A stretch of DNA of 64,000 bases from Gloeomargaritales cyanobacterium VI4D9 (lineage in GTDB: Bacteria; Cyanobacteriota; Cyanobacteriia; Gloeomargaritales; Gloeomargaritaceae): the NCBI GenBank assembly GCA_927797885.1, contig OV696605.1:3013157-3077156 (forward strand), given 5' to 3'. The notes under the pieces were generated by a model. That model was not told the origin of the DNA, made no database searches, and saw nothing but the letters and a program-made list of their open reading frames with translations. Below are positions 4,033 to 20,064 of this stretch, one piece after another. Position 1 is the first letter of the stretch. Each line of letters starts with the position of its first letter. A program made the translations under genes and the position numbers.

Positions 4033-4478
4033 CTGGAGGTTATCTCACTACAATGCTGAGAAGTCCAGGGGCAGTGTCCCTGCGACCCCGTATTCTGCCC
4101 TAGGATTTTAGTCTTGGGCTGTCGCTAGGTTTCTCACTTCGCTCATGTCCCTGCCCCCTTGGTTACACTGGCTCGATGAATGTCCCAGTACCAACACCTG
4201 GGCATTACAATCGCTGGACAGATTAGCCCAGGGGGATGTGGTCTTTACCCCCCGACAGACGGCGGGACGGGGACAACAGGGACGTTCTTGGTATGCGCCA
4301 CCGGGAGTTTTAACCGCTTCATTTGTCCTGCAACCACTTGCCCCACAAGAATTGCCTTGGCTGAGTTTGGCGGCGGGGTTGGCGGTGATCCATGCGGTCG
4401 AGGATTTACTGCCCTTGCCTGCCCTGGCGCTGGGCATCAAATGGCCGAACGATGTCCTGCTCTGGGGGCGGAAGGTGG
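4033..4478. repeat. Duplicated segment R1, copy A (birA upstream and 5' half)
   Basis: About 446 bp are repeated at 17679-18124 with roughly 90 percent identity or better by eye. The segment starts at CTGGAGGTTATCTCAC and ends inside birA at GAAGGTGG. It includes a short GC-rich palindromic stretch (GTCCAGGGGCAGTGTCCC) related to the core of the small repeats found elsewhere in the window. Copy A is the parental locus because birA is intact here. Confidence 0.9.
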
Positions 4479-4912
4479 CGGGGGTGCTGTGCGAAGCCCG
4501 GTTGCCCAAAGCGGTGGTTGGGGTGGGGCTGAATCGGCAGGTGGATTGGCCAAGGGTTTTGGCAGGGGGCACGATGGATTTATCCCCGACCCAGGTGGCG
4601 AGTCTGTCGGAGGTGAGCGATACGCCGCCAGAAGTAATGCTTTTGTTAACACAATTGCGGAATTATCTCCTGCAGGCTCATGGGGTGATTCGGCGGCAGG
4701 GGTTGACCGGGCTTTTGCCCCAACTGTGCCAGCGGGATGTGCTGTCCGGTTGTCCGCTGGTTGTCCATACATCGGACGGGATGCTTAGCGGGGTGGGGGC
4801 GGGGATTGACATTTGGGGACGGTTACAGGTGCAACGGGCCGATGGAACCGTGCAAGCTTTGGCCGTCGGGCGGGTGGTGCGCTGGGAGCCTTCACGCCGC
4901 TGGGATGAGTAA
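4145..4912 (+). CDS. birA: Biotin--[biotin carboxyl-carrier protein] ligase
   Basis: This 255-residue monofunctional BirA has no N-terminal DNA-binding domain. Family motifs are present: STNTWALQS at the N-terminus, the biotin/ATP loop GRGQQGRSWYAPPG, and IKWPNDVLLWGRKVAGVLCEA with the catalytic-domain KWPND motif. A C-terminal SH3-like domain covers the last 50 residues. It attaches biotin to acceptor lysines, and the carboxylase encoded convergently right next to it ends in a biotin-acceptor domain, so that enzyme is a likely client along with acetyl-CoA carboxylase. The 3' ends of the two genes overlap by 21 bp. A broken second copy lies at 17791-18124. Confidence 0.93.
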   Translation: MSLPPWLHWLDECPSTNTWALQSLDRLAQGDVVFTPRQTAGRGQQGRSWYAPPGVLTASFVLQPLAPQELPWLSLAAGLAVIHAVEDLLPLPALALGIKWPNDVLLWGRKVAGVLCEARLPKAVVGVGLNRQVDWPRVLAGGTMDLSPTQVASLSEVSDTPPEVMLLLTQLRNYLLQAHGVIRRQGLTGLLPQLCQRDVLSGCPLVVHTSDGMLSGVGAGIDIWGRLQVQRADGTVQALAVGRVVRWEPSRRWDE

Positions 4913-7900
4913 AAGCACGATTTGTCCCGCTGTCACGGCTTGCCCCGGCTGACAGAGAATCTGGGCAACGGTAGCGTCTAGGGGGCTAAGCACCTCAATT
5001 TCCGTTTTCATCGCTTCGATAATCATCAACTTTTCCCCGGCATGAACCACTGCTTGCGGGGTGACCACCACCTGCCAAACCGTACCGCTGACTTCCGCCC
5101 GCACCGCCACCTGTCCTGGGGGAATGGGAATTTCCGTCGCCTCTAGCGGAGCAGTTGCCGCTTCCGTGTCGGGTCGGTCAAATTCCCCAGCCGCTACCCA
5201 CCGTTCCCGTTCGGCATGAAAGGCGTTTTGTTGCTGGGTTTTGAAAGCCTGAATGGATGCGGCATGGTCTTGCAAAAATTGCTGATAGTCCCCCAGATGA
5301 AACGTTTCCTCGTGAATGTCTAATTTCACCCGCCCGTAGGTCACATCCTCTCGGTAGCGCTGGAGTTCTGCCCCGGTGACCGGGAAAAAGCGAATTTGGT
5401 CAAAAAACCGCAACAGCCAGGGCTGGGTAAAATCCGCAGTTCGGTAATAGCGATTCCACACGGGCACCGTGCGCCCCACCAACTGATACCCCCCTGGTCC
5501 TTCCATGCCGTAAATGCACAGATACGCCCCGCCAATGCCCACCGCATTCTCCGGCGTCCAGGTGCGGGCAGGGTTGTATTTGGTCGTGACCAGCCGATGC
5601 CGCGGGTCAAGCGGGGTGGCCACCGGTGCCCCCAGATACACATCCCCCAACCCCAGCACCAAATAACTCGCCCCAAACACAATGTCATACACCTGCTGGA
5701 TGTCTGCCAAGCCATTCACCCGCCGGATAAATTCTAAATTGCTCGGACACCAGGGCGCATCCGGTCGCACCGACTGCATATATTTGGCAATCGCAAGCTG
5801 GATGGATTCATCGTTCCAGGACAGGGGTAAATGCACAATGCGGGTGGGGACAGTCATCTGCGCCACGTCGGGTAATTCGGCTTCCGCCGTTGCTAATATA
5901 TCCAAAAGTTCAGAACGGGGCAGTCGCTGGTTATCATAATGCACTTGTAATGAGCGAATGCCGGGGGTCAGGTCAATAATGCCGGGAATCTTTTGCGCTT
6001 GCAACCAGGTCATCAACCCATGCACCCGAAACCGCAGGGTCAAATCCAAAGTTAACGGCCCGTATTCGATCAATATATATTTGTCCCCCGCTTGCCGGTA
6101 GGTCACCCCCACCGGATGGGCATCCGTCACTCGCTTGAGCACTGGTTCCGTAACCACCGGTACGGCGGGGATAGAGGGTAGGGGCGTCAGGCGAGCCAAT
6201 TCCTGTTCTTGTCGCTGTTCCCAAGCACGGGCAGTCGGTTCATCAATGGGAAAAAACCGCACCCGGTCCCCCGGTTTCAACTGCCCGATTTTCCATAGTT
6301 CCGCCTGCACAATCGTCGCCGGACAGACAAACCCCCCCAAACTCGGCCCGTCGTACCCCAAAATGATCGGCATATCCCCGGTAAAGTCAATCGTGCCGAT
6401 GGCGTAGGCGTTGTCGTGGATGTTGGAAGGGTGCAGACCCGCTTCCCCCCCATCCGGTCTGGCCCAGGTGGGTGCCGGGCCAATCAGCCGTATCCCCGTG
6501 CGAGCCGAATTGTGATGCACCACCCAGGCATGGCTCAACAGCATCTCCATATCCTGCGGGGTAAAAAAATCCGGTGCCCCGTGGGGACCCACCATCACGC
6601 CGATTTCCCAGGCATCCGGGTATTGGGGAATTAATGCCGGGGGCAAAACCGCCGGTTGATCCTGTCCATCCCAGGGCGTTAGCGGCAACCCATCCCCCGC
6701 CCGCAACGCTCTGCCGCCATGCCCGCCAAATTGCCCCAGGGTGAAGGTCGCCCGACTGCCCAAATACTCCGGCACCGGCAACCCCCCCTGCACCGTAATA
6801 TAAGTGCGATACCCTGCCCCCTGCACCGCCTTCAGGGTCAACACACTCCCTGCCTGTACCGTCACCGTCTGCCAGTAGGGAACCGGTTGCCCGTCCAGAG
6901 TCGCAGGCATCATCGCGCCGGTCAGGCAAATGCGGGTAGGGGCATTAAAGCGCAGGGTCGGCCCCGCCATCGTACATTCCAGCCCAGCCGCCCCCAGGGG
7001 GTTGCCCAGCAGACGATTGCCCCAGCGAAACGCCAGGTGGTCCATCGGCCCGGAAGGCGGCACCCCCACATCCCAATACCCCAACCGCCCCGGATAGTCC
7101 TGCACGGTAGTAAACGTACCAGGTGCCAACACGTCAAGGGTCTGGGGGTGATAGGTGAATTGGGAGAGCCACTGGGTACTCACCTCGCCCCGCTGAAACA
7201 CTGGGTCTGCCAAAACCTGTTGCAGGTACGCCAAATTGGTGGCAATCCCCGCCAGGGTGGTTTGGGCTAAAACGGTTTGTAATTTATCAATCGCCTCTGT
7301 CCGGTTTGCCCCATGCACAATGGCTTTCGCCAACAGGGGGTCGTAGAACGGGGTCACTTCCGTCCCAGGGCGAATCCAGGCATCCCACCGGGCACCTTCA
7401 GCCAATGCCACATGGGTCAGTACCCCGGCGCTGGGCTGGTGGTTTTTGTGGGGGTCTTCGGCATAAATCCGTACTTGGATGGCATGACCCTGGGGCTGGT
7501 GGGGATAACGGTCGAAAAAATCCCGTTCCCCGGCAGCCAAACACACCATCCATTCCACCAAATCCATGCCGTAGACCAACTCCGTCACCCCGTGTTCCAC
7601 CTGCAACCGGGTATTGACCTCCAGGAAATAGAATTCCCCCGTTGTCCCATCCACAATAAATTCCACCGTGCCTGCCGACTGGTACTGCACCGCTTCCCCC
7701 AACCGTTGCGCCGCTTGGAGCAACCCCTGCCGCACCGATTCTGGCAACCCCGGCGCTGGCGTTTCCTCGATCACCTTTTGGTTGCGCCGCTGGCTGGAAC
7801 AATCCCGTTCCCCCAGGGTCAACACCCGTCCCTGCCCATCCCCAAAAATTTGCACCTCCACATGGCGGGCCACAGGCAGGTATTTCTCCAGGAACACCCC

Positions 7901-8482
7901 ACTATCCCGGAAATTAGCCTGGCTCAGTCGTTGCACCTGATCGTAAGCCGTTGCCAATTCCTCCGCATCTTCACACCGACGCATCCCAATTCCCCCGCCC
8001 CCCGCTGTACTTTTCAGCATCACCGGATAGCCGATCTGCGCTGCTGCCGCCTGCGCCTCGGTGAGACTACTTAATAAAGGCGTGCCAGGAACCAGGGGAA
8101 TCCCCTGACGGGTAGCTAGATCACGGGCAAGGTGCTTGCGACCAAACTGGCGAATGTGTTCCGGCTTGGGTCCGATAAACACCAGCCCCCGTTGGGCACA
8201 GGCAGTGGCAAAATCCGCATTTTCGCTGAGAAACCCGTACCCTGGATGAATTGCCGCCGCCCCCGCCTGCACCGCCAGGTTCAACACCCGCTCCCCTTGC
8301 AGATAACTCTCGCTAGCCAGAGTTCCCCCCAACGCTAGCGCTTCCGTCGCCGCCTCCACGTGGGGACTGTGCCGATCCGGTTCCGAATAAACCGCCACAC
8401 TGGCAATCCCCAGCCGGTTTAAGGTGCGGATAATCCGCAGGGCAATTTCCCCCCGATTGGCGACCAGGACTTTGGCGAACAT
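4892..8482 (-). CDS. Biotin-dependent guanidine carboxylase (urea carboxylase family)
   Basis: This 1196-residue multidomain enzyme has a biotin carboxylase at about 1-450 (ATP-grasp loop KSTAGGGGIGMRRCED; EVNTRLQVEHGVTE). A KipA/AHS2-type domain covers about 455-790 (VGVPPSGPMDHLAFRWGN), a KipI/AHS1-type domain about 800-1030, and a C-terminal biotinyl domain carries the acceptor motif EAMKTEIEV with Lys near residue 1159. This architecture is shared by urea carboxylase and guanidine carboxylase. I favour guanidine because the gene lies directly downstream of two DUF1989 genes and a guanidine-I riboswitch; in this family that context marks guanidine use (established work on CgdAB). ATG 8482 overlaps the upstream TAA by one base (TAATG). 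The longer in-frame start lies inside the upstream gene and is rejected. Confidence 0.9.
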   Translation of the reverse strand: MFAKVLVANRGEIALRIIRTLNRLGIASVAVYSEPDRHSPHVEAATEALALGGTLASESYLQGERVLNLAVQAGAAAIHPGYGFLSENADFATACAQRGLVFIGPKPEHIRQFGRKHLARDLATRQGIPLVPGTPLLSSLTEAQAAAAQIGYPVMLKSTAGGGGIGMRRCEDAEELATAYDQVQRLSQANFRDSGVFLEKYLPVARHVEVQIFGDGQGRVLTLGERDCSSQRRNQKVIEETPAPGLPESVRQGLLQAAQRLGEAVQYQSAGTVEFIVDGTTGEFYFLEVNTRLQVEHGVTELVYGMDLVEWMVCLAAGERDFFDRYPHQPQGHAIQVRIYAEDPHKNHQPSAGVLTHVALAEGARWDAWIRPGTEVTPFYDPLLAKAIVHGANRTEAIDKLQTVLAQTTLAGIATNLAYLQQVLADPVFQRGEVSTQWLSQFTYHPQTLDVLAPGTFTTVQDYPGRLGYWDVGVPPSGPMDHLAFRWGNRLLGNPLGAAGLECTMAGPTLRFNAPTRICLTGAMMPATLDGQPVPYWQTVTVQAGSVLTLKAVQGAGYRTYITVQGGLPVPEYLGSRATFTLGQFGGHGGRALRAGDGLPLTPWDGQDQPAVLPPALIPQYPDAWEIGVMVGPHGAPDFFTPQDMEMLLSHAWVVHHNSARTGIRLIGPAPTWARPDGGEAGLHPSNIHDNAYAIGTIDFTGDMPIILGYDGPSLGGFVCPATIVQAELWKIGQLKPGDRVRFFPIDEPTARAWEQRQEQELARLTPLPSIPAVPVVTEPVLKRVTDAHPVGVTYRQAGDKYILIEYGPLTLDLTLRFRVHGLMTWLQAQKIPGIIDLTPGIRSLQVHYDNQRLPRSELLDILATAEAELPDVAQMTVPTRIVHLPLSWNDESIQLAIAKYMQSVRPDAPWCPSNLEFIRRVNGLADIQQVYDIVFGASYLVLGLGDVYLGAPVATPLDPRHRLVTTKYNPARTWTPENAVGIGGAYLCIYGMEGPGGYQLVGRTVPVWNRYYRTADFTQPWLLRFFDQIRFFPVTGAELQRYREDVTYGRVKLDIHEETFHLGDYQQFLQDHAASIQAFKTQQQNAFHAERERWVAAGEFDRPDTEAATAPLEATEIPIPPGQVAVRAEVSGTVWQVVVTPQAVVHAGEKLMIIEAMKTEIEVLSPLDATVAQILCQPGQAVTAGQIVLLLIPAA

Positions 8483-9132
8483 TAGCCCGCCGCATCCCAA
8501 ATCAGCAACCGCACTGGCGTGGGGTGGTAGGCATTACAGGGGTTGTTGATCTGGGGGCAATTGGAAATCAACACCAGCACATCCATTTCCGCCCGCAAAT
8601 CCACATATTTCCCCGCCTCGGAAATCCCGTCCACAATCTCCAACGTGCCATCCGCCGCCACCGGCACATTCATAAAGAAATTGATATTGCTCACCAAATC
8701 CCGCTTGTGCATCCCGTACTGGCTCAACTCCAGCAGGTAATTTTCCACACAGGCGTGCAGATGCTTCTTGTGCAGACCATAGCGCACCGAATTGCTCTCC
8801 ATACTGCACGCACCCCCCAGGGTATCGTGACGACCACAGGTATCGTTCAGCACCGTCATCAGTACATTGCCCACATTGGACAACAACTGCGTCCCCGCCG
8901 TGATAAAGATATTCCCCTGGCGCACCACCGTATCCGGCGCACTGTAGCGCTCCGAGGTATCGGCGGCATTGTAAATCAGGGTGTCCACCGCCTGATTCCC
9001 CTCCACATCCACAATCCGTAAAATTTGCCCCTTGTGCACCACCTTCGACCAGGGCTGGCGGGCAGGCAATTCGTAGTCGTAAATCGCCTGGGTGGGGTCA
9101 AGGGTGGGGGTCGCCATCGTCATCGTCGCCAT
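8482..9132 (-). CDS. cgdB: Carboxyguanidine deiminase subunit (DUF1989, urea carboxylase-associated protein type 2)
   Basis: This 216-residue DUF1989 protein carries the motif series QAVDTLIYNAAD, RQGNIF, NDTCGRHDTLGGACSMESN and NINFFMNVPV, and ends with a segment with conserved Asn-Cys-Pro (LVLISNCPQINNPCNAY). His, Asp and Cys residues in the HDTLGGAC region are likely metal or active-site residues. Established work shows that paired DUF1989 proteins beside the carboxylase form the deiminase CgdAB, which turns carboxyguanidine into allophanate and ammonia. Start 9132 is set by an AGGAGG-like site (GGAGGCACGAAGGTT) just upstream. It lies 68 bp behind cgdA and overlaps the carboxylase start. 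The A/B assignment is by similarity pattern and could be swapped. Confidence 0.83.
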   Translation of the reverse strand: MATMTMATPTLDPTQAIYDYELPARQPWSKVVHKGQILRIVDVEGNQAVDTLIYNAADTSERYSAPDTVVRQGNIFITAGTQLLSNVGNVLMTVLNDTCGRHDTLGGACSMESNSVRYGLHKKHLHACVENYLLELSQYGMHKRDLVSNINFFMNVPVAADGTLEIVDGISEAGKYVDLRAEMDVLVLISNCPQINNPCNAYHPTPVRLLIWDAAG

Positions 9133-9200
9133 AACCTTCGTGCCTCCTGAGAAATGTTTACTGCAAATGTTAATACAAAACAATGACCAATTCTGTTGTT

Positions 9201-9980
9201 TTACAGGGCGTAATGGGGAGCCAGCGGTCGTTGCCGCCACCAGGTATCCGTGTTGATAAACCCCCGCACCACCTCCTCGTTCGCCGTGCGACAGGGGTCA
9301 TCAGCCGCCGGTTCCGGGGAACGCCACACCGTCAATTGGATGGGTTGCGGTCGGTACACCGTATCCGGGTGCAGGACATGGGGGCAGTTGGCAATCACCA
9401 CCAGCACATTCATTTCCGCCCGCAAATCCACATAAGCACCGGGTTTAGCCGCCCCGGCATCGTACTGCAAATCCCCCGTCGGTGTCACCGTCACCCGGCT
9501 AAAGAAATTCACATTCGGCATCAAATCCCGGCGGGACATCCCCCACTTGCCCAACGCCCGCAGAAACTGATCCTGGGCACTGTGAAAATCCTGGCGACCC
9601 TGAATCTCCGTGCCCGTGCCCCCATGCCCGTACTTGGCTCGATTGGTCGCCGCCGTACTGCAACCGCAGATCAGGTCATGACCGTTGGACGTATCCGCCG
9701 TGATGGAAAACAAAATCCGCCCCATATCCGAGTACAGCACCATCCCCTGGCGCAAAAAGGCGTTGAACTGGATTTTGGCTGTATCCGCCACATTCAAGCG
9801 CTCCATCGGGCGGTCAGCGTTATAGCCAATCATCGCCACTCCCTGCGACCCCCCCAAATCCGTAATCCGCAGGGTCTGCCAGCGGGGAATTACCCCATGC
9901 CAATAGCCTCCCCCCGGCACCTTCTCCGACCAAACCACCAATTCCGGGCGAATGTCCGTTTCTGCCACCGTTGCCACCAT
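9201..9980 (-). CDS. cgdA: Carboxyguanidine deiminase subunit (DUF1989, urea carboxylase-associated protein type 1)
   Basis: This 259-residue DUF1989 protein is paralogous to the next gene. It shows WSEKVPGGGYWHGVIPRW, GGSQGVAMIGYNADRP, TADTSNGHDLICGCSTAATN, NVNFFSRVTV and YVDLRAEMNVLVVIANCPH. It lacks the GGAC of its partner but keeps His-Asp and Cys residues, fitting an unequal heteromeric enzyme. Start 9980 is decided by a strong AAGGAGGT site with good spacing; the longer frame starting near 10010 would begin before this site. It is the first gene of the minus-strand operon and lies 83 bp downstream of the guanidine-I riboswitch, which should induce it when guanidine is present. Confidence 0.85.
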   Translation of the reverse strand: MVATVAETDIRPELVVWSEKVPGGGYWHGVIPRWQTLRITDLGGSQGVAMIGYNADRPMERLNVADTAKIQFNAFLRQGMVLYSDMGRILFSITADTSNGHDLICGCSTAATNRAKYGHGGTGTEIQGRQDFHSAQDQFLRALGKWGMSRRDLMPNVNFFSRVTVTPTGDLQYDAGAAKPGAYVDLRAEMNVLVVIANCPHVLHPDTVYRPQPIQLTVWRSPEPAADDPCRTANEEVVRGFINTDTWWRQRPLAPHYAL

Positions 9981-10062
9981 GACGCCTACCTCCTTGACTG
10001 GGTTACTCAACGACGAAGCCCCGGAGATAACGCAACTTAGCCTGTCTCTCAGACTAATCGCA

Positions 10063-10178
10063 CGACCTCCCGGGCTTTTATCCCGCCGTGTAACCGCACC
10101 CGCCAGGGCAACGGTCTGCCTCTCTCGGACCAGCCGCAGTAGTTTGTCCCACTGCCGGAACCCTAGAAGCTCTCCTGT
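10063..10178 (-). promoter_or_regulatory. Guanidine-I (ykkC) riboswitch
   Basis: Read on the minus strand, the three hallmark conserved blocks of the ykkC RNA occur in the right order. They are TCTAGGGTTCCG (10156-10167), CTGGTCCGAGAGA (10121-10133) and ACACGGCGGGATAAAAGCCC followed by GGGAG (10067-10091). The blocks are joined by segments that can pair. The riboswitch binds free guanidinium and normally turns genes on. I see no clear intrinsic terminator between it and cgdA, so control may act on translation or through an unrecognised terminator. Confidence 0.93.
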
Positions 10179-10307
10179 TGGCTCATAACCCTATCCTAAT
10201 CCTCCCCCTGTAAAAAACAGTTACTTTTGCTACTTTTTACAAAAATTTACAATCTTTTTCTTGGGGATTGTTCCTATGTATGCCCACAGATTTCTGTCCG
10301 CAAAAGT

Positions 10308-10321
10308 GTATCTTAAGATAC
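10308..10321 (+). promoter_or_regulatory. NtcA-binding site upstream of the ABC transporter
   Basis: GTATCTTAAGATAC is a perfect 14-bp palindrome and an exact GTA-N8-TAC NtcA box. NtcA is the global nitrogen regulator of cyanobacteria and activates from boxes centred near -41. A -10 element is expected about 20-24 nt downstream; only a weak candidate (GATGCT, 10346-10351 region) is seen. The location 130 bp before the substrate-binding-protein gene fits activation of guanidine uptake under nitrogen limitation. Confidence 0.7.
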
Positions 10322-10452
10322 TGTTTTCCCTGATTTGCTTTGGGGATGCTGAAGCAGTACCGGAAGCGTCGGTATCGGGGGTAAAATCATCAGGATTTCC
10401 CAGACGCTTTGCTGGTGATAAATGGTTCGTTTTTCGGGAGTTTACGGGTGGC
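10322..10452 (+). other. Unassigned structured 5' leader of the transporter operon
   Basis: This non-coding stretch can form two overlapping stems. One pairs TACCG (10358-10362) with CGGTA (10370-10374). The other pairs AGCGTC (10365-10370) with GACGCT (10403-10408). They share bases, so they exclude one another. It matches no riboswitch class that I can recognise, and it is not a second ykkC RNA. An upstream reading-frame extension exists here (ATG 10276) but has no ribosome-binding site or signal-peptide logic. Confidence 0.3.
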
Positions 10453-11514
10453 ATGAAATGGAAATCTCACGCTTGGAATGGGTTGTTTTTTGTGTTGGCA
10501 ATGATGCTAGCCGTCAGTTGTGTCAGCCCTACGGCAGAGAATCAAGCTCCCATCGTACGCCTGGGTTTTAGTGCCTGGCCGGGCTGGTTCCCCTGGCAGG
10601 TCGCCCAGGAAAAAGGAATTTTTACCGCCCAAAATGTGCAGGTAGATTTGAAGTGGTTTGATAGCTATTTGGATTCCATTAATGCTCTAACGGCACAACA
10701 GTTGGATGCCAATTCCCAGACCCTTAATGACACCATTAGCGCCGTAGCCGGTGGTGCGGATCAGGTGATTGTTTTGGTGAATGATAATTCGACGGGAAAT
10801 GACAAAATCATCGTCCGGGCAGGCATTAATACCATTGCGGATTTGAAGGGGAAAAAAGTCGCTGCTGAAGAGGGCACGGTGGATCATTTTCTCCTGCTGT
10901 TGGGCATGGAACAAGCGGGATTAAAACCCTCGGATATTACCTTTGTGCCCTTGGAAACCGGGAAAGCCGCCACCGCCTTTGTCGCCGGACAGGTGGATGC
11001 GGTGGGGGTGTTTGCGCCGTTTACCACCCAAGCCTTGAAACGTCCGGGCAGTAAGGAATTATTCAGTTCCAAGGATTTTCCGGGGGCGATTTCTGACCAT
11101 TTGGTATTTACCCGGAGCTTTGTGAATGAGCATCCCGAACAGGTGCAGGCGCTGGTGGATGCCTGGTTTGCGACGACGAAATTTCTGGAAACCAATCCCG
11201 AGGAAGCCACTGCCATTATGGCGAAAAAAGCCAATGTTTCGGTGGAAGAATACAAGCAATATGCAGGCGGCACCCGCATTTTTACAGTGCAGGAAAATAT
11301 CACTGCTTTTCAACCTGGCAATGATATGTCCTCGTTGCCTTTTGCCGCTAAGAAAATCAGTGCCTTTTTAACACAAGTCGGTTTAGCCAAAACGCAACCG
11401 GATTTAAGCAAATTGTTCGACGACCGATTTGTGAAAGCCCATGCCCAAGCCCAAATGTCCCCCGTTCCAGTCACTTCCCATGACCGATCCAGCCCGTTCC
11501 CAGCGCATTCGTGA
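10453..11514 (+). CDS. ABC transporter substrate-binding lipoprotein, probably for guanidine
   Basis: This 353-residue NMT1/TauA-like periplasmic binding protein starts with a signal peptide and a probable lipobox (LAVSC, Cys near residue 23). The mature part opens with VRLGFSAWPGWFPWQVAQEKG, typical of the nitrate/sulfonate/bicarbonate-type family. DLKGKKVAAEEGTVDHF and GQVDAVGVFAPFT follow, also typical of that family. ATG 10453 is chosen because it gives the signal peptide at residue 1. The permease gene overlaps its 3' end by 35 nt. Substrate guanidine is inferred from the divergent riboswitch-controlled operon and the allophanate hydrolase downstream; a sulfonate, urea or related nitrogen compound would be the alternative. 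Confidence 0.85.
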   Translation: MKWKSHAWNGLFFVLAMMLAVSCVSPTAENQAPIVRLGFSAWPGWFPWQVAQEKGIFTAQNVQVDLKWFDSYLDSINALTAQQLDANSQTLNDTISAVAGGADQVIVLVNDNSTGNDKIIVRAGINTIADLKGKKVAAEEGTVDHFLLLLGMEQAGLKPSDITFVPLETGKAATAFVAGQVDAVGVFAPFTTQALKRPGSKELFSSKDFPGAISDHLVFTRSFVNEHPEQVQALVDAWFATTKFLETNPEEATAIMAKKANVSVEEYKQYAGGTRIFTVQENITAFQPGNDMSSLPFAAKKISAFLTQVGLAKTQPDLSKLFDDRFVKAHAQAQMSPVPVTSHDRSSPFPAHS

Positions 11515-12328
11515 CCAGTTACAGCCCCGGCGACTGCGCCCGTCGGTATTTTGGCGGCTGGCTGAGGACATTCCCCCCCGGTTGTACTGGCGGTTGGTGA
11601 CCCTCTCGATCCTGTTTCCCCTGGCGGTGTGGGGGTTGGTGACCTGGGTGGGGGCGGTTGACCCGACGTTTTTGCCCTCGCCGGGACAGGTGGTGCAGGC
11701 GGCGATTCGGCTGGGGCGTTCGGGGGAATTGTGGCAGGATACCTGGGCAAGTGTGGGGCGCATCGGGGTCGGGTTTACCCTCTCGGCGTTGGTGGCGATT
11801 CCGGTGGGATTGTTGATGGGAAGTTTTGCCAGTGTGCGGGCGTTGTTGGAACCCTTGTTTGGGTTGATGCGCTATATGCCTGCTCCGGCGTTTATTCCCC
11901 TCTTGATTTTGTATCAGGGGGTGGGGGAAGCACCGAAAGTAACGCTGATTTTTATTGGCACGTTTTTCTTCAATGCGTTGATGGTCATGGATACGGTGAA
12001 ATTTGTGCCGAAGGAGTTAATTGAAACGACTTATATGCTAGGAGGAAATCGGGTGGCAACGGTGATGCAAGTGATTTTTCCCCATGTGTTGCCGGGGGTT
12101 TTGGATGCCTGTCGGATCAATTTGGCGGCGGCTTGGCAGTTGGTGATTGTGGCGGAATTAGTGGCGGCAACGGAGGGGTTGGGGCGGCGCATTAGTTTGG
12201 CGGGAAGATTTTTACGGACGGATGAAATTTTTGTGGGGATTATCGTGATTGGACTAATCGGGTTGGGGTTGGATTTGTTGTTTCAATATCTGGTGCGGTT
12301 GACCTGTCCTTGGGCGGATGCCAAATGA
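11480..12328 (+). CDS. ABC transporter permease (SsuC/TauC family)
   Basis: This 282-residue protein has about six hydrophobic segments and the EAA loop that docks on the ATPase (ETTYMLGGNRVATVMQVIFP, then HVLPGVLDACR). It is a single permease of the nitrate/taurine type, expected to act as a homodimer. The preferred start is ATG 11480 (MTDPARS), which overlaps the upstream gene; an earlier ATG at 11441 in the same frame would overlap more and lacks a site. Its stop overlaps a possible ATG of the ATPase gene (ATGA at 12325). Confidence 0.87.
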   Translation: MTDPARSQRIRDQLQPRRLRPSVFWRLAEDIPPRLYWRLVTLSILFPLAVWGLVTWVGAVDPTFLPSPGQVVQAAIRLGRSGELWQDTWASVGRIGVGFTLSALVAIPVGLLMGSFASVRALLEPLFGLMRYMPAPAFIPLLILYQGVGEAPKVTLIFIGTFFFNALMVMDTVKFVPKELIETTYMLGGNRVATVMQVIFPHVLPGVLDACRINLAAAWQLVIVAELVAATEGLGRRISLAGRFLRTDEIFVGIIVIGLIGLGLDLLFQYLVRLTCPWADAK

Positions 12329-12360
12329 GTTTTTTCGATTACCAATTGGGAGGTTCATTC

Positions 12361-13155
12361 ATGTTTTTACAGGTGCGACAGTTGAGCAAACATTTCCCGA
12401 CCAAGCGGGGCACATTGGTGGCGCTGGAGGATATTAATTTCTCTGTGGCTGCTGGGGAGTTTGTCTGTGCGGTGGGGGCTTCGGGTTCTGGTAAATCTAC
12501 TCTCCTGCGGCAGATTGCGGGGTTGGATCAGCCGACGTGTGGGGGGGTGTGGATTGATGGACAGCGGGTGACGGGTCCAGGGGCGGATCGGGGGATCGTC
12601 TTTCAGCATTACAGTTTGTACCCCTGGATGACGGTACAGGAGAATGTGGAGTTTGGCTTAAAATTGCACGGGATTCCCCCCCGGGTGCGGCGGGAACAGG
12701 CGCAGTACTACCTGGAGGTGGTGGGATTGACGGCGTTTGCCCAGGCGTTGCCCCGGCAGTTGTCTGGAGGGATGAAACAGCGGGTGGCGATTGCCCGGGC
12801 GTTGGCGGCGGAACCCCGGATTTTATTGCTCGATGAACCCTTTGGGGCGTTGGATTTGCACACCCGGGAAACCATGCACGAATTTATGGTGCAATTGTGG
12901 CAACGCACCCGTTTGACCGTGTTTATGATCACCCACGATGTGGAGGAGGCGGTATTTTTGGCGAATCGGATTTTGGCGTTGAGCGCTCACCCGGGGCGCA
13001 TCTGTCGGGAGATGCAGGTGGAATTGCCGGATCGGAGTTTGGGGGTGATGGCAATCAAACGCCATCCGGCTTTTCATGACTACCGGGATGAATTGGTGCG
13101 GCTGTTGCGGCAACAGGGACGGGCGGATGCGCCTACCCCGGCGTTGGTGGCATAG
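12361..13155 (+). CDS. ABC transporter ATP-binding protein (SsuB/TauB family)
   Basis: The 264-residue ATPase has Walker A GASGSGKST, Q-loop IVFQHYSLYPWM, signature LSGGMKQRVAIARAL, Walker B ILLLDEPFGALD and switch His MITHDVEEAVF. Start 12361 is set by a GGAGG nine bases upstream; ATG 12325 would add 12 residues not conserved in the family. It completes a one-permease, one-ATPase importer with the two preceding genes. The next gene (atzF) follows after 219 bp, so a separate promoter there is possible. Confidence 0.9.
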   Translation: MFLQVRQLSKHFPTKRGTLVALEDINFSVAAGEFVCAVGASGSGKSTLLRQIAGLDQPTCGGVWIDGQRVTGPGADRGIVFQHYSLYPWMTVQENVEFGLKLHGIPPRVRREQAQYYLEVVGLTAFAQALPRQLSGGMKQRVAIARALAAEPRILLLDEPFGALDLHTRETMHEFMVQLWQRTRLTVFMITHDVEEAVFLANRILALSAHPGRICREMQVELPDRSLGVMAIKRHPAFHDYRDELVRLLRQQGRADAPTPALVA

Positions 13156-13374: not shown

Positions 13375-14754
13375 ATGATCTCAAGCCTCGATTTGCCATC
13401 CTTGCGTCAGGCGTACAGCACGGGGCAGGTGACCCCGGTTGACGTTGTCGAAACGGTGTACGAACGGATTGAACGCTATGCTGACCCGGCGGTGTGGATT
13501 TATTTGGCGCCCAAGGAGGAGAGTTTACGGCGGGCGCAGGCGTTGACCCCAACCGAACCGAGCCAGTTGCCCCTGTACGGCATTCCCTTTGCCATCAAGG
13601 ACAATATGGATTGGGCGGGGGTGCCCACGACGGCGGGGTGTCCCAGTTTTGCCTATGCGCCCCAACAGTCGGCGACGGTGGTGAACCGGTTAATCTTCGC
13701 CGGGGCAATCCCCATCGGGAAAACCAATTTGGATCAGTTTGCGACGGGGTTGGTGGGCACCCGTTCTCCCTACGGCATTTGCCGCAATCCCTTTCACCCG
13801 GAGTACATTCCGGGGGGGTCGAGTTCCGGGTCGGCGGTGGCGGTGGCGGCGGGGCTGGTGAGTTTTAGTTTGGGGACGGATACGGCGGGGTCGGGGCGGG
13901 TGCCAGCGGCGTTTAACCAGATCGTGGGTTTGAAACCGACCCGGGGTTATCTCAGTACCCAGGGGGTGGTGCCCGCCGTGCGGAGTCTGGATTGTGTGTC
14001 CATCTTTGCCCTCACCTGCCGGGATGTCCAGGCGATTCTCCGGGTAGCCGCTGGGTTTGACCCGCTTGACCCCTTTTCCCGGTCGCCCCAGTGGACGGAT
14101 CAACCGCCGGGTCTGCGGGTGGGGGTGCCGCCGAGGGAACAGTTGGAATTTTTTGGGAATCAGGCGGCGGCAGAAAATTATCAGCAGGCGTTGACCCGGC
14201 TGGCAGGGTTGGGGTGTACCTTGGTCACGGTGGATGTTATGCCCTTTTTGACAGCGGGTGACTTATTGTATGAGGGGGCGTGGTTAGCGGAGCGGACGGC
14301 GGCGGTGGGGGAATTTCTCCGCCAGACTCAGACCGGGGTTGACCCGGTGGTGCGGCAAATTATCCTGGCAGGTGAGGCGATTTCCGGGGTGCGGGTGTTC
14401 CAGGATATGTACCGTTTGGCGGCGCTGAAACGGAAAACGGAAATGCAATGGGCGCAGATGGATATGCTGGTTCTGCCCACCACGGGGACGATTTACCGGA
14501 TAGCGGAAGTGCTAGCTGAACCCATCGCCCTGAATCGCCATTTGGGACGGTACACCAACTTTGTGAATTTACTCGACCTGTGTGCCTTGGCAGTACCGAG
14601 CGGCAGGCAACCCAACGGTCTCCCGACCGGCATCACCCTCATGGCTCCGGCGGGGTGGGATCAATGGCTGTGCCACTGGGGGCAACGGTATCAAGCGGCG
14701 TTGGGGGAAATGTTAGGAGCGACTGCAATGGCTGAGCAGGAGGTGTCCCCATGA
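13375..14754 (+). CDS. atzF: Allophanate hydrolase, amidase domain only
   Basis: This 459-residue amidase-signature enzyme hydrolyses allophanate. The Ser-cisSer-Lys triad context is visible: FAIKDNMDWAGVPTTAGCPS (Lys), PGGSSSGSAVAVAAGLVSF (cis-Ser), and GTDTAGSGRVPAAFNQIVG (nucleophile Ser). Full-length AtzF or DUR1,2-type hydrolases carry an extra C-terminal domain of about 130-150 residues; here that domain is a separate downstream gene, overlapping by ATGA (14751). The protein finishes the guanidine route: carboxyguanidine, allophanate, then CO2 and ammonia. Its last third (from 14109) is duplicated at 18125. It could in principle serve a urea amidolyase route instead. Confidence 0.9.
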   Translation: MISSLDLPSLRQAYSTGQVTPVDVVETVYERIERYADPAVWIYLAPKEESLRRAQALTPTEPSQLPLYGIPFAIKDNMDWAGVPTTAGCPSFAYAPQQSATVVNRLIFAGAIPIGKTNLDQFATGLVGTRSPYGICRNPFHPEYIPGGSSSGSAVAVAAGLVSFSLGTDTAGSGRVPAAFNQIVGLKPTRGYLSTQGVVPAVRSLDCVSIFALTCRDVQAILRVAAGFDPLDPFSRSPQWTDQPPGLRVGVPPREQLEFFGNQAAAENYQQALTRLAGLGCTLVTVDVMPFLTAGDLLYEGAWLAERTAAVGEFLRQTQTGVDPVVRQIILAGEAISGVRVFQDMYRLAALKRKTEMQWAQMDMLVLPTTGTIYRIAEVLAEPIALNRHLGRYTNFVNLLDLCALAVPSGRQPNGLPTGITLMAPAGWDQWLCHWGQRYQAALGEMLGATAMAEQEVSP

Positions 14755-15850
14755 CCGAACCCTACCGCTTGGCGGTCGTCGGTGCCCATTTGACCGGACA
14801 ACCCCTGAACTATCAACTCCAGGAATTACAGGCTCGGTGCCTGCGTACCTGTACCACCGCACCCCTCTATCGGCTGTACGCCCTTGCCGGTGGGGAGATA
14901 CCCAAACCCGGTCTGGTGCGCCAAGGGGCAGGGCAACCGGGCTATGCCATCGAAGTGGAAGTGTGGGCTTTGTCAGCTACCAGTTTTGGGCACTTTGTGG
15001 CGCAAATTCCCTCACCCTTGGGGATTGGCACGCTGATTTTAGAAGACGGGGAAACGGTCAAGGGCTTTGTGTGTGAGTCGTTTGCGGTGGCGGATGCCCT
15101 GGATATTTCCCATTACGGCGGCTGGCGGGCGTATCTGGCGGCGCAGGCGAGAAAAAATTCCTCAGAACCCCTAGACAAATCCAGAGATTCAGTCTAGTAT
15201 TTTAGATTGTGTCGCTAATCCACTGACCCGGTTGACCCTGGAACAGTGGGAGATACTGCATACCTTGGTAGTAATTTACGGGGGAATGTAAGTCTCGGGG
15301 CGACTGGGATAGAGTTTGGTTTGTGCATGGGTTTACTCCTATCGTGTTTCCTGTTCGGGAAATGCGGTTGAACCTGTGGGATTGATGGCGTTGTGGAGGC
15401 CAGTCGTGGCATTGGGAATCCTGGGAACCAAGTTGGGCATGACCCAGCTTTTTGATGAAACGGGCAAGGCGGTGCCGGTGACGGTGGTGCAGGCGGGGTC
15501 TTGTACGGTGACGCAGTTGAAAACCACCGCCACGGATGGCTACGATGCGGTGCAACTGGGGTTTGGGGTGACCCGGGAAAAGACCCTGAGCAAGCCGGAG
15601 CGGGGACATTTGCAAAAGGCGAACGCCCCGTGGGTGAAGCATCTGCGGGAATACCGGTTGGACAATCCCACCCAGTACCAGGTGGGTCAGCAGATTACGG
15701 TGGCATTGTTCCAGCCGGGGCAACGGGTGGACGTGGTGGGCACCAGCATCGGGCGGGGCTTTGCAGGCTACCAACGGCGGCACCATTTTGGGCGCGGGCC
15801 AATGGCGCACGGTTCCAAAAACCACCGCCAGCCCGGTTCGATTGGGGCGG
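14109..15850. repeat. Duplicated segment R2, copy A (atzF 3' end, C-domain gene, rplC 5' part)
   Basis: About 1742 bp are repeated at 18125-19867, with a near-constant offset of 4016-4017. By eye the rplC part (from about 15200) differs at only a handful of positions, whereas the atzF 3' end carries more substitutions. The breakpoint at 15850/15851 lies inside rplC. Confidence 0.95.
14751..15197 (+). CDS. Stand-alone allophanate hydrolase C-terminal domain (gamma-glutamylcyclotransferase-like fold)
   Basis: This 148-residue protein matches the C-terminal domain of AtzF/DUR1,2 allophanate hydrolase: LAVVGAHLTGQPLNYQL, YRLYALAGGEIPKPGLVR, and SPLGIGTLILEDGETVKGF, ending in ISHYGGWRAYL. In fused enzymes this domain is reported to process the N-carboxycarbamate product of the amidase domain. 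An AGGAGGT site precedes ATG 14751, which overlaps the atzF stop, so the two halves are made together and may form a complex. A second, nearly identical copy is at 18768-19214. Confidence 0.85.
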   Translation: MTEPYRLAVVGAHLTGQPLNYQLQELQARCLRTCTTAPLYRLYALAGGEIPKPGLVRQGAGQPGYAIEVEVWALSATSFGHFVAQIPSPLGIGTLILEDGETVKGFVCESFAVADALDISHYGGWRAYLAAQARKNSSEPLDKSRDSV

Positions 15851-15909
15851 CCATGAATCCCAGCCAAAACAGCGACCAGTACGGGGTTGTGCCGCCAATG
15901 ACCATATGA
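15406..15909 (+). pseudogene. Truncated duplicate of rplC (ribosomal protein L3)
   Basis: It starts with the same GTG, GGAGG site and upstream region as the intact rplC at 19423 and encodes the first 148 residues of L3 (start [15 protein letters not shown]). At 15850 the homology ends abruptly and 19 unrelated residues follow before TGA. The C-terminal third that completes the L3 core is missing. The full promoter region is duplicated, so a truncated L3 could be made; it may equally be silent or unstable. Confidence 0.9.
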
Positions 15910-17570: not shown

Positions 17571-17680
17571 AAAGCACCTCTGTAAATTCAAAGTTAGCGG
17601 TCGCACGCCCTTGGTTCTCAATAATATTGATATTCCAGCGAGATAACCTTCTGGTAATGCAAATAACATAGAAGTGCCCT
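17571..17680. repeat. 110-bp miniature element with IS5-like ends, copy 1
   Basis: The ends AAAGCACCTCTG and TAGAAGTGCCCT form imperfect inverted repeats that resemble the ends of the complete IS5-family element at 59510-60752 (GGGCACCTCTATT). It has no reading frame. The middle (AAAGTTAGCGGTCG) recurs, inverted, in the copy at 48578-48686. Its right end abuts the start of duplicated segment R1 copy B almost exactly. Confidence 0.7.
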
Positions 17681-18124
17681 GAAGGTTATCTCACTACAAG
17701 GCTGAGAAGTCCAGGGGCGGTGTCCCTGCGACCCCGTATTCTGCCCTAGGATTTTAGTCTTGGGCTGTCGCTAGGTTTCTCACTTCGCTCATGTCCCTGC
17801 CCCCTTAGTTGCATTGATTGGATGAATGTGGGAGTACCAACACCTGGGCATTACAATCCCTGGACAAATTAACCCAAGGAGATGTGGTCTTTACCCCCCG
17901 ACAGACGGCAGGGCGAGGACAACAGGGACGTTCTTGGCATGCCCCAGCAGGGGTTTTCACCGCCTCGTTTATTTTAGAACCGCTGGCTCCCCGGAATTGC
18001 CCTGGTTGAGTTTGGCGGCGGGGTTGGCAGTGATCCATGCGGTCGAGGATTTACTGCCCCTGCCTGCCCTGGGGTTGGGCATCAAATGGCCGAATGATGT
18101 ATTACTCTGGGGGCAGAAGGTGGG
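17679..18124. repeat. Duplicated segment R1, copy B
   Basis: Second copy of 4033-4478. It ends inside birA at GAAGGTGG, where the sequence switches to the middle of atzF (R2 copy B) across a short G-rich microhomology. Confidence 0.9.
17791..18124 (+). pseudogene. Broken duplicate of birA (5' half)
   Basis: The start ATG matches birA, but codon 6 is a TAG stop (TGG in the intact gene). A one-base loss near 17995 shifts the frame, and the 3' half is replaced by atzF sequence at 18125. No ligase can be made from it. Part of it is read in frame as the N-terminus of the chimeric reading frame described below. Confidence 0.9.
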
Positions 18125-19214
18125 GGGTCTGCGGGTGGGGGTGCCGCCGCGGGAGCAGTTGGATTTTTTTGGCAATCAGGCGGCGGCGGAGAATTACCAG
18201 CAGGCGTTGACCCGGCTGGCAGGGTTGGGGTGTACCTTGGTCACGGTGGATGTTATGCCGTTTTTGGCGGCGGGTGACTTATTGTATGAGGGGGCGTGGT
18301 TAGCCGAGCGCACGGCGGAGGTGGGGGAATTTCTCCGCCAGACCCAGGCGGGGGTTGACCCGGTGGTGCGGCAGATTATCCTGGCAGGTGAGGCGATTTC
18401 TGGGGTGCGGGTGTTCCAAGATATGTACCGTTTGGCGGCACTGCAACGGAAAACCGAGATGCAATGGGCGCAGATGGACATGCTGGTTCTGCCCACCACC
18501 GGGACGATTTACCGGGTAACGGAAGTGCTGGCTGAACCCATCGCCCTGAATCGCAATTTGGGACGGTACACCAACTTTGTGAATTTACTCGACCTGTGTG
18601 CCTTGGCACTACCGAGCGGCAGGCAACCCAACGGTCTCCCGACCGGCATCACCCTCATGGCAAGGGCGGAGCGGGATCAATGGCTGTGCCACTGGGGGCA
18701 ACGGTATCAAGCGGCACTGGGGGGAATGTTGGGGGCGACTGGGATTCCTTGGGGGGGGGATTGCCTCATGACCGAACCCTACCGCTTGGCGGTCGTCGGT
18801 GCCCATTTGACCGGACAACCTTTGAACTATCAACTGCAAGAATTACAGGCTCGGTGCCTGCGTACCTGTACCACCGCCCCCATTTACCGCTTGTACGCCC
18901 TTTTTGGTGGGGAGATACCCAAACCCGGTCTGGTGCGTCAAAGGGCAGGGCAACCGGGCTATGCCATTGAAGTGGAAGTCTGGGCTTTGTCAGCTACCAG
19001 TTTTGGTCAATTTGTGGCGCAAATTCCCTCACCCCTGGGGATTGGCACGCTGATTTTAGAAGACGGGGAAACGGTCAAGGGCTTTGTGTGTGAGTCGTTT
19101 GCGGTGGCGGATGCCCTGGATATTTCCCATTACGGCGGCTGGCGGGCGTATCTGGCGGCGCAGGCGAGAAAAAATTCCTCAGAACCCCTAGACAAATCCA
19201 GAGATTCAGTCTAG
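17826..19214 (+). CDS. Chimeric open reading frame: birA fragment, amidase fragment and allophanate hydrolase C-domain
   Basis: A 462-codon frame runs through the junction. Its first 50 or so residues are out-of-frame birA. In-frame BirA residues follow (LSLAAGLAVIHAVEDLLPLP to IKWPNDVLLWGQKVGG), then AtzF from about its residue 246 to the end, then the complete C-domain. The amidase catalytic Lys and Ser residues are absent, so the amidase part is dead. Notably, the stop that separates atzF from the C-domain gene in copy A is gone, so the two are fused as in ordinary AtzF proteins. Whether it is translated from 17826 is doubtful; no good ribosome-binding site is seen there. Confidence 0.4.
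   Translation: MWEYQHLGITIPGQINPRRCGLYPPTDGRARTTGTFLACPSRGFHRLVYFRTAGSPELPWLSLAAGLAVIHAVEDLLPLPALGLGIKWPNDVLLWGQKVGGLRVGVPPREQLDFFGNQAAAENYQQALTRLAGLGCTLVTVDVMPFLAAGDLLYEGAWLAERTAEVGEFLRQTQAGVDPVVRQIILAGEAISGVRVFQDMYRLAALQRKTEMQWAQMDMLVLPTTGTIYRVTEVLAEPIALNRNLGRYTNFVNLLDLCALALPSGRQPNGLPTGITLMARAERDQWLCHWGQRYQAALGGMLGATGIPWGGDCLMTEPYRLAVVGAHLTGQPLNYQLQELQARCLRTCTTAPIYRLYALFGGEIPKPGLVRQRAGQPGYAIEVEVWALSATSFGQFVAQIPSPLGIGTLILEDGETVKGFVCESFAVADALDISHYGGWRAYLAAQARKNSSEPLDKSRDSV
18768..19214 (+). CDS. Second copy of stand-alone allophanate hydrolase C-terminal domain
   Basis: The 148-residue frame from ATG 18768 is nearly identical to the protein encoded at 14751-15197; differences include Phe for Ala in the YRLYALFGGE region and Gln for His in SFGQFVAQ. 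The AGGAGGT site of copy A is replaced by a run of G (GGGGGGGGGATTGCCTC), so independent translation may be weaker. It is intact as a domain and could supplement the first copy, or it may be expressed only as the C-terminus of the chimeric frame. Confidence 0.6.
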   Translation: MTEPYRLAVVGAHLTGQPLNYQLQELQARCLRTCTTAPIYRLYALFGGEIPKPGLVRQRAGQPGYAIEVEVWALSATSFGQFVAQIPSPLGIGTLILEDGETVKGFVCESFAVADALDISHYGGWRAYLAAQARKNSSEPLDKSRDSV

Positions 19215-19248
19215 TATTTTAGATTGTGTCGCTAATCCACTGACCCGG

Positions 19249-19276
19249 TTGACCCTGGAACAGTGGGAGATACTGC
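19249..19276 (+). promoter_or_regulatory. Candidate promoter of the ribosomal protein cluster
   Basis: TTGACC (19249-19254) and TACTGC (19271-19276) are separated by 16 bp, about 150 bp before the rplC start. The same sequence is present at the truncated copy (15232-15259). The -10 match is weak. Confidence 0.3.
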
Positions 19277-19422
19277 ATACCTTGGTAGTAATTTACGGGG
19301 GAATGTAAGTCTCGGGGCGACTGGGATAGAGTTTGGTTTGTGCATGGGTTTACTCCTATCGTGTTTCCTGTTCGGGAAATGCGGTTGAACCTGTGGGATT
19401 GATGGCGTTGTGGAGGCCAGTC

Positions 19423-20064
19423 GTGGCATTGGGAATCCTGGGAACCAAGTTGGGCATGACCCAGCTTTTTGATGAAACGGGCAAGGCGGTGCCGGTGACG
19501 GTGGTGCAGGCGGGGCCTTGTACGGTGACGCAGTTGAAAACCACCGCCACGGATGGCTACGATGCGGTGCAACTAGGGTTTGGGGTGACCCGGGAAAAGA
19601 CCCTGAGCAAGCCGGAGCGGGGACATTTGCAAAAGGCGAACGCCCCGTGGGTCAAGCATCTGCGGGAATACCGGTTGGACAATCCCACCCAGTACCAGGT
19701 GGGTCAGCAGATTACGGTGGCATTGTTCCAGCCGGGGCAACGGGTGGACGTGGTGGGCACCAGCATCGGGCGGGGCTTTGCCGGGTATCAACGGCGGCAC
19801 CATTTTGGGCGGGGGCCAATGGCGCACGGTTCCAAAAACCACCGCCAGCCCGGTTCGATTGGGGCGGGTACTACCCCGGGGCGGGTCTATCCGGGGAAAC
19901 GCATGGCGGGGCAAATGGGCAACCAGCGGGTGACAATCAAAGATTTGAGCATCTTTAAGATTGACCCGGAGCGCCATTTGATCCTGATTCGGGGGTCAGT
20001 GCCGGGCAAACCGGGTGCCCTGGTGAGTGTCACCCCCGCCAAACTTGTGGGCGCAAAGGGGTAA
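19423..20064 (+). CDS. rplC: 50S ribosomal protein L3
   Basis: This 213-residue L3 has the usual cyanobacterial length. [20 protein letters not shown] opens it; the [20 protein letters not shown] and [20 protein letters not shown] loop is the conserved segment reaching toward the peptidyl transferase centre. GTG 19423 is selected because a GGAGG precedes it and the conserved N-terminus starts here; the upstream frame extension is leader. It is the first gene of the ribosomal cluster, with rplD 3 bp later. Its first 148 codons are duplicated at 15406. Confidence 0.96.

Follow-up and report, generated by a model that had tools for sequence, protein, structure and literature searches.

The guanidine-use genes in the 64,000-nucleotide stretch of DNA analysed here (the window), which belongs to a 3.16 Mb complete cyanobacterial genome, form two divergent arms, one with the presumed importer and one with enzymes of guanidine breakdown. 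This layout raises the question of which signals each arm obeys. A first-pass annotation had answered it with a clean division of labor, in which the enzymes respond to guanidine through a riboswitch and the transporter to nitrogen starvation through an NtcA box. We examined this proposal using the signals between the arms, their conservation in the genus, and the equivalent loci of other cyanobacteria.

Gene content of the two arms

About 472 bp separate the start codons of the two arms (ATG at 9980 on the minus strand and ATG at 10453 on the plus strand), a distance at the top of the range of 330-470 bp previously estimated for this gap. The minus-strand arm encodes two carboxyguanidine deiminase subunits, of the UAAP1 (9201-9980; TIGR03425, 295 bits) and UAAP2 (8482-9240; TIGR03424, 347 bits) families, and a carboxylase (4892-8500; TIGR02712, 1831 bits) whose annotated family is that of urea carboxylases. 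Guanidine rather than urea carboxylases have been distinguished by an Asp at K. lactis position 1584 together with an Asp, and not an Asn, at position 1330 (PMC11410670), and the window carboxylase has Asp at both, as in a guanidine carboxylase. The same signature is present in 25 of 26 cyanobacterial "urea carboxylases" (the window protein and those of loci L040-L147), the one from L084 having Asn. In light of this distribution, the compound behind the early urea catabolism inferred for Gloeobacter and Gloeomargarita (PMC6737895) may have been guanidine, and the signature suggests that the published urea carboxylase assignments in these two genera should be corrected. A search of the genome for a urease alpha gene found none, which fits the carboxylase route. 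Within the genus this gene is present in G001, G002 and G006, the genomes with a Rieske oxygenase gene at the locus (see below), and absent from the well-completed G000, G003 and G004.

The plus-strand arm begins with a substrate-binding lipoprotein of the SsuA family (10453-11514), followed by an ABC importer permease (11441-12328) and ATPase (12310-13155). We infer guanidine as the substrate of this importer, the homologues of the lipoprotein being found mostly behind Guanidine-I riboswitches. The arm ends in an allophanate hydrolase encoded as two separate ORFs, an amidase part (13375-14754; TIGR02713, 585 bits) and a C-terminal part (14751-15197; TIGR02713, 183 bits). The earlier division into enzymes and transporter therefore needs restating, because the importer arm also carries this hydrolase: the division is one of "import plus last step" versus "first two steps". 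The gap between the ATPase and the allophanate hydrolase is 220 bp in the window and 16-53 bp in four relatives, so the hydrolase could have a promoter of its own; a search of the 220-bp gap found no convincing one.

Several rearrangements were seen around these genes. In locus L119 (G004) the carboxylase gene lies apart from the deiminase genes, with ORFs resembling a restriction-modification system in its place. In the window, a 1.7 kb block containing part of the allophanate hydrolase is duplicated (14109-15850 and 18125-19867, 95% identity), as is a piece of a biotin ligase region (4033-4483 and 17679-18127, 89% identity), and the duplicated pieces are fused as a single ORF (17826-19214) in what looks like a recent, rearranged duplication. 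An ORF inside the duplicated block (15316-15909) resembles ribosomal protein L3 by eye, with its C-terminal end apparently truncated or altered.

Signals between the arms

The leader of the enzyme arm contains a Guanidine-I (ykkC) riboswitch aptamer on the minus strand (10065-10177), bearing out the earlier reading. It matches RF00442 over the full length of the model (1-107 of 107) at 79 bits (E 2e-12), the gathering cutoff being 63, and is the single copy in the genome. The importer arm (10185-10500) gave no match to a Guanidine riboswitch, not even a decayed copy, at E-values up to 10. Overlapping the aptamer is an expression-platform hairpin on the same strand (10016-10077; fold z-score -3.6). 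As the conserved 3' end of the aptamer also serves as the 5' strand of the hairpin stem (AAGCCC-GGGAG), the two structures would be mutually exclusive, a layout as expected of an ON switch. The hairpin is kept in all members of the genus that carry the locus, with 99% of cells paired across five distinct genus sequences; a covariation test found almost no covariation, the stem being too invariant to inform. Its tail is U-rich in some relatives and poorly so in the window, and sigma-70 and terminator scans of 9900-10500 called nothing. We infer that switching is transcriptional rather than translational; it could also be translational or of another kind, given the hairpin without a good U-tract and the uncalled terminator.

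On the importer side, the predicted perfect GTA-N8-TAC palindrome was recovered on the plus strand as GTATCTTAAGATAC (10308-10321), which is palindromic over all 14 nt. With nine copies in the window where 5.3 are expected, the bare pattern is at chance level and not significant, and we dropped it as evidence by itself. A genome-wide scan for strict GTA-N8-TAC plus TA-N3-T was likewise set aside as non-discriminating (44 matches versus 218 for a reversed control pattern). A composite motif was trained only on named nitrogen genes, using the promoters of glnA, nirA/narB, amt and ntcA in the genus. When all 127,954 window positions were scored with this independently trained motif, GTATCTTAAGATAC ranked first. 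It is also a one-base variant of the genome's glnA site (GTATCTCAAGATAC). Each of the six genus genomes with the locus, including the three whose arms are separated by a Rieske gene, keeps a GTA-N8-TAC before the importer. Conservation, motif rank and near-identity to the glnA site together place it above chance. The -10-like box that follows after 23 nt (GATGCT, 10345-10350; predicted start near 10357) is weak: against TA-N3-T at 20-24 nt downstream it has the A at position 2 and the T at position 6 and misses the first T. It is conserved in the genus as (G/T)ATG(C/G)T at N23-24, and some -10 boxes of the nirA and amt promoters of the genus likewise begin with a base other than T. The genome encodes NtcA, and four other proteins match the NtcA model weakly. 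Overall, an NtcA-type promoter without a riboswitch is supported for the importer arm.

Upstream of the riboswitch on the minus strand lies a further site, GTAGCAAAAGTAAC (10220-10233), in the arrangement GTAGCAAAAGTAAC-N21-TAGGAT. Its form is GTA-N8-AAC, which departs from the strict GTA-N8-TAC and retains GT-N10-AC; since one half site is imperfect, we term it NtcA-like and do not count it as a confirmed NtcA site. It ranks third of the 127,954 positions, and a site that is imperfect in the same manner (GTTACAAGGGATAC) occurs in the genome's own ntcA promoter. TAGGAT (10193-10198, 21 nt after the site; predicted start near 10186) conforms to TA-N3-T at 20-24 nt, and GTA-N8-(A/G)AC is found on the enzyme arm in six of six genomes with a TANNNT box at N21-22. 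This site argues against a nitrogen control confined to the importer.

Two nucleotides upstream of the enzyme-arm site we detected TTTACAAAAATTTACAAT (10236-10253, plus strand), a perfect match to the HLR1 motif of RpaB, whose consensus we take to be (G/T)TTACA(A/T)(A/T)NN(G/T)TTACA(A/T)(A/T). The presence of this HLR1-like element between the arms is a new observation. Its 15-nt core, TTTACAAAAATTTAC, is invariant in every aligned copy from six genomes and both arms, while the final bases of the element differ in G004 and in some of the copies on the enzyme arm. The 16-mer is found only at the guanidine locus save for one match in G003, and the end of the core lies 57, 57, 55, 57, 57 and 57 nt before the importer box in the six genomes. 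Each arm has one copy of the element in the three genomes that possess the Rieske gene. Five strict matches to the motif are present in the genome versus about 0.05 expected, and RpaB itself is encoded there. The same strict instances are found again in other members of the genus; close to them lie genes for a polyprenyl synthase and an ABC1 kinase, an ORF resembling a transporter and an uncharacterised ORF of 89 aa (L159-L162 and their genus equivalents). None of the other strict matches examined precedes an obvious photosystem or high-light gene, and the element is absent from 106 riboswitch upstreams outside the genus. A light or redox input at this element is offered as a hypothesis only.

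Comparison across cyanobacteria

Loci were collected by importer homology and by riboswitch and then mapped. A same-strand Guanidine-I riboswitch precedes the importer in 76 of the 96 importer loci, either directly or at a distance of up to 4.5 kb, where the two presumably share an operon; 13 loci lack one and 7 are truncated. All nine divergent loci outside the genus, apart from those of Chamaesiphon, have a riboswitch on each arm. The layout in the window is thus unusual, as first suspected. A riboswitch on the enzyme arm only was found just in this genus and in two Chamaesiphon loci, for each of which Rfam gives one riboswitch. The genus and Chamaesiphon form two separate groups in the importer tree; as the sister of the Chamaesiphon importers is a locus with two riboswitches, the importer-arm riboswitch was likely lost in Chamaesiphon. 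Two separate lineages that have importers without a riboswitch amount to a natural experiment on what determines whether an importer is induced by its substrate.

The same comparison bears on the enzyme-arm site. GTA-N8-TAC occurs within 200 bp upstream of 63 of the 106 Guanidine-I riboswitches outside the genus versus 3.4 expected from dinucleotide shuffles, these upstreams not being independent (several are from Microcoleus and Nostoc). A correctly spaced -10 box accompanies it in 27 of the 106 (0.3 expected), and in the whole set of 112 riboswitch upstreams the share with a composite motif score of at least 15 is 51%, versus 2-3% of shuffled or random sequences. Because of this excess, an NtcA site and a riboswitch in series look to be a general arrangement in cyanobacteria. 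If it is as general as the excess suggests, guanidine use would be part of the nitrogen regulon throughout the phylum, a point unstated in the open-access literature covered. A rule by which an importer without a riboswitch should have an NtcA box fails: an NtcA-type box lies within 400 bp of three of the eight importers that have neither riboswitch nor divergent enzymes. The Rieske oxygenase gene between the arms in L116, L117 and L120 is accompanied by an NtcA-like site of its own and by a copy of the 15-nt core, hinting at a role in guanidine or methylguanidine metabolism.

A probable two-level control and its alternatives

Taken together, these features make it probable, in our estimate, that this is a divergent guanidine-assimilation locus under two-level control, with nitrogen acting on both arms and guanidine added on the enzyme arm. 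The aptamer, its alternative hairpin, the gene content and the conserved sites with their spacings can be read directly from the sequences. In nitrogen shortage, NtcA with 2-oxoglutarate would activate both arms, each through its own site. Nitrogen hunger alone would suffice for the importer arm (binding protein, permease, ATPase and allophanate hydrolase); since only the first-step enzymes have a guanidine-sensing riboswitch, the importer is apparently made on hunger alone, and guanidine would be scavenged before the cell senses any. The enzyme arm (carboxyguanidine deiminase and guanidine carboxylase) would additionally be gated by the Guanidine-I riboswitch in its leader: when guanidine is absent the 10016-10077 hairpin would form and expression would stop, and when it is bound the aptamer would be held and expression would proceed. 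The enzyme arm would then require both nitrogen hunger and guanidine, and the importer arm nitrogen hunger. Binding and activation by NtcA, like the start sites of both arms, are predictions from these motifs, whose weak points are the single perfect half site of the enzyme arm and the weak GATGCT box of the importer. The resulting picture is testable: guanidine would serve as a nitrogen source whose uptake follows hunger and whose breakdown is gated by substrate.

What stands of the split first proposed is the riboswitch on the carboxylase/deiminase arm and the NtcA-type promoter without a riboswitch on the importer arm; its exclusivity does not, given the conserved enzyme-arm site and the frequency of such boxes upstream of riboswitches. 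A clean split, with enzymes responding to guanidine only, the importer to nitrogen only and the 10220-10233 site non-functional, would account for the AAC in place of TAC at that site and for an importer box much nearer the consensus. Nevertheless we think it unlikely, as both the site and the distance to its -10 box are kept in six genomes, the site ranks third in the window, the series arrangement is common in cyanobacteria, and the ntcA promoter of the genome also has an imperfect half site. That one NtcA dimer on the palindrome at 10308-10321 serves both arms, the enzyme-arm site being incidental, appears very improbable. The palindrome is indeed perfect and lies 131 bp from the start of the aptamer, but its minus-strand reading has no fitting -10 box, and in three genomes, where the Rieske gene puts about 1.3 kb between it and the enzyme arm, each arm still keeps its own site. 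That the importer box stays with the importer in these genomes speaks for two-level control. We give hardly any credence to the palindrome being a chance match or the site of another CRP-family regulator: the window count of the pattern and the four weak matches to the NtcA model would allow it, but not readily the near-identity to the glnA site, the conservation in six genomes and the fixed spacing to the HLR1-like element and the -10 box.

A tentative extension, compatible with two-level control and in our judgement somewhat unlikely, is that RpaB acts at the HLR1-like element and links guanidine use to light or redox state. The perfect match, the excess and recurrence of strict instances, the invariant core, the almost locus-specific 16-mer, the fixed 55-57 nt to the importer box, the presence of an RpaB gene and the adjoining NtcA and HLR1 sites of Synechocystis scpB (PMC6331805) all favor such an input. 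However, the element is confined to the genus among the riboswitch upstreams compared, the other strict matches examined lack obvious photosystem or high-light genes downstream, and the site could belong to another OmpR-type regulator. The full version of a three-input hub, with NtcA on both arms, RpaB sensing light or redox at a shared HLR1 element and the riboswitch on the ATP-consuming enzyme arm only, is doubtful; if true, import would be a scouting response and costly breakdown would wait for substrate.

Among known systems, the gdmH-ghaA-ghaB-importer operon of Synechocystis PCC 6803 (sll1077-1082) resembles the window locus in lying behind a Guanidine-I riboswitch and in having a homologous kind of ABC importer (PMC12186494, PMC10094980), and its repression by ammonium (PMC10094980) agrees with NtcA and riboswitch acting in series. 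It differs in that a single operon holds both the importer, placed behind the riboswitch, and a nickel guanidine hydrolase, whereas the window locus has the carboxylase pathway, two divergent arms and an importer without a riboswitch. The divergent loci of Nostoc, Pseudanabaena and others (L040, L048, L049, L057, L060, L079, L084, L092 and L096) share the arms and gene sets, most with NtcA-type boxes, but have a Guanidine-I riboswitch of their own on both arms. The Chamaesiphon loci (L091 and L113) come closest in having the riboswitch on the enzyme arm only and NtcA-type boxes facing both arms, but belong to a separate lineage of the importer tree and lack the HLR1-like element. Finally, the scpB and scpE promoters of Synechocystis also combine adjoining NtcA and HLR1 motifs (PMC6331805), there in front of high-light genes and with no riboswitch.
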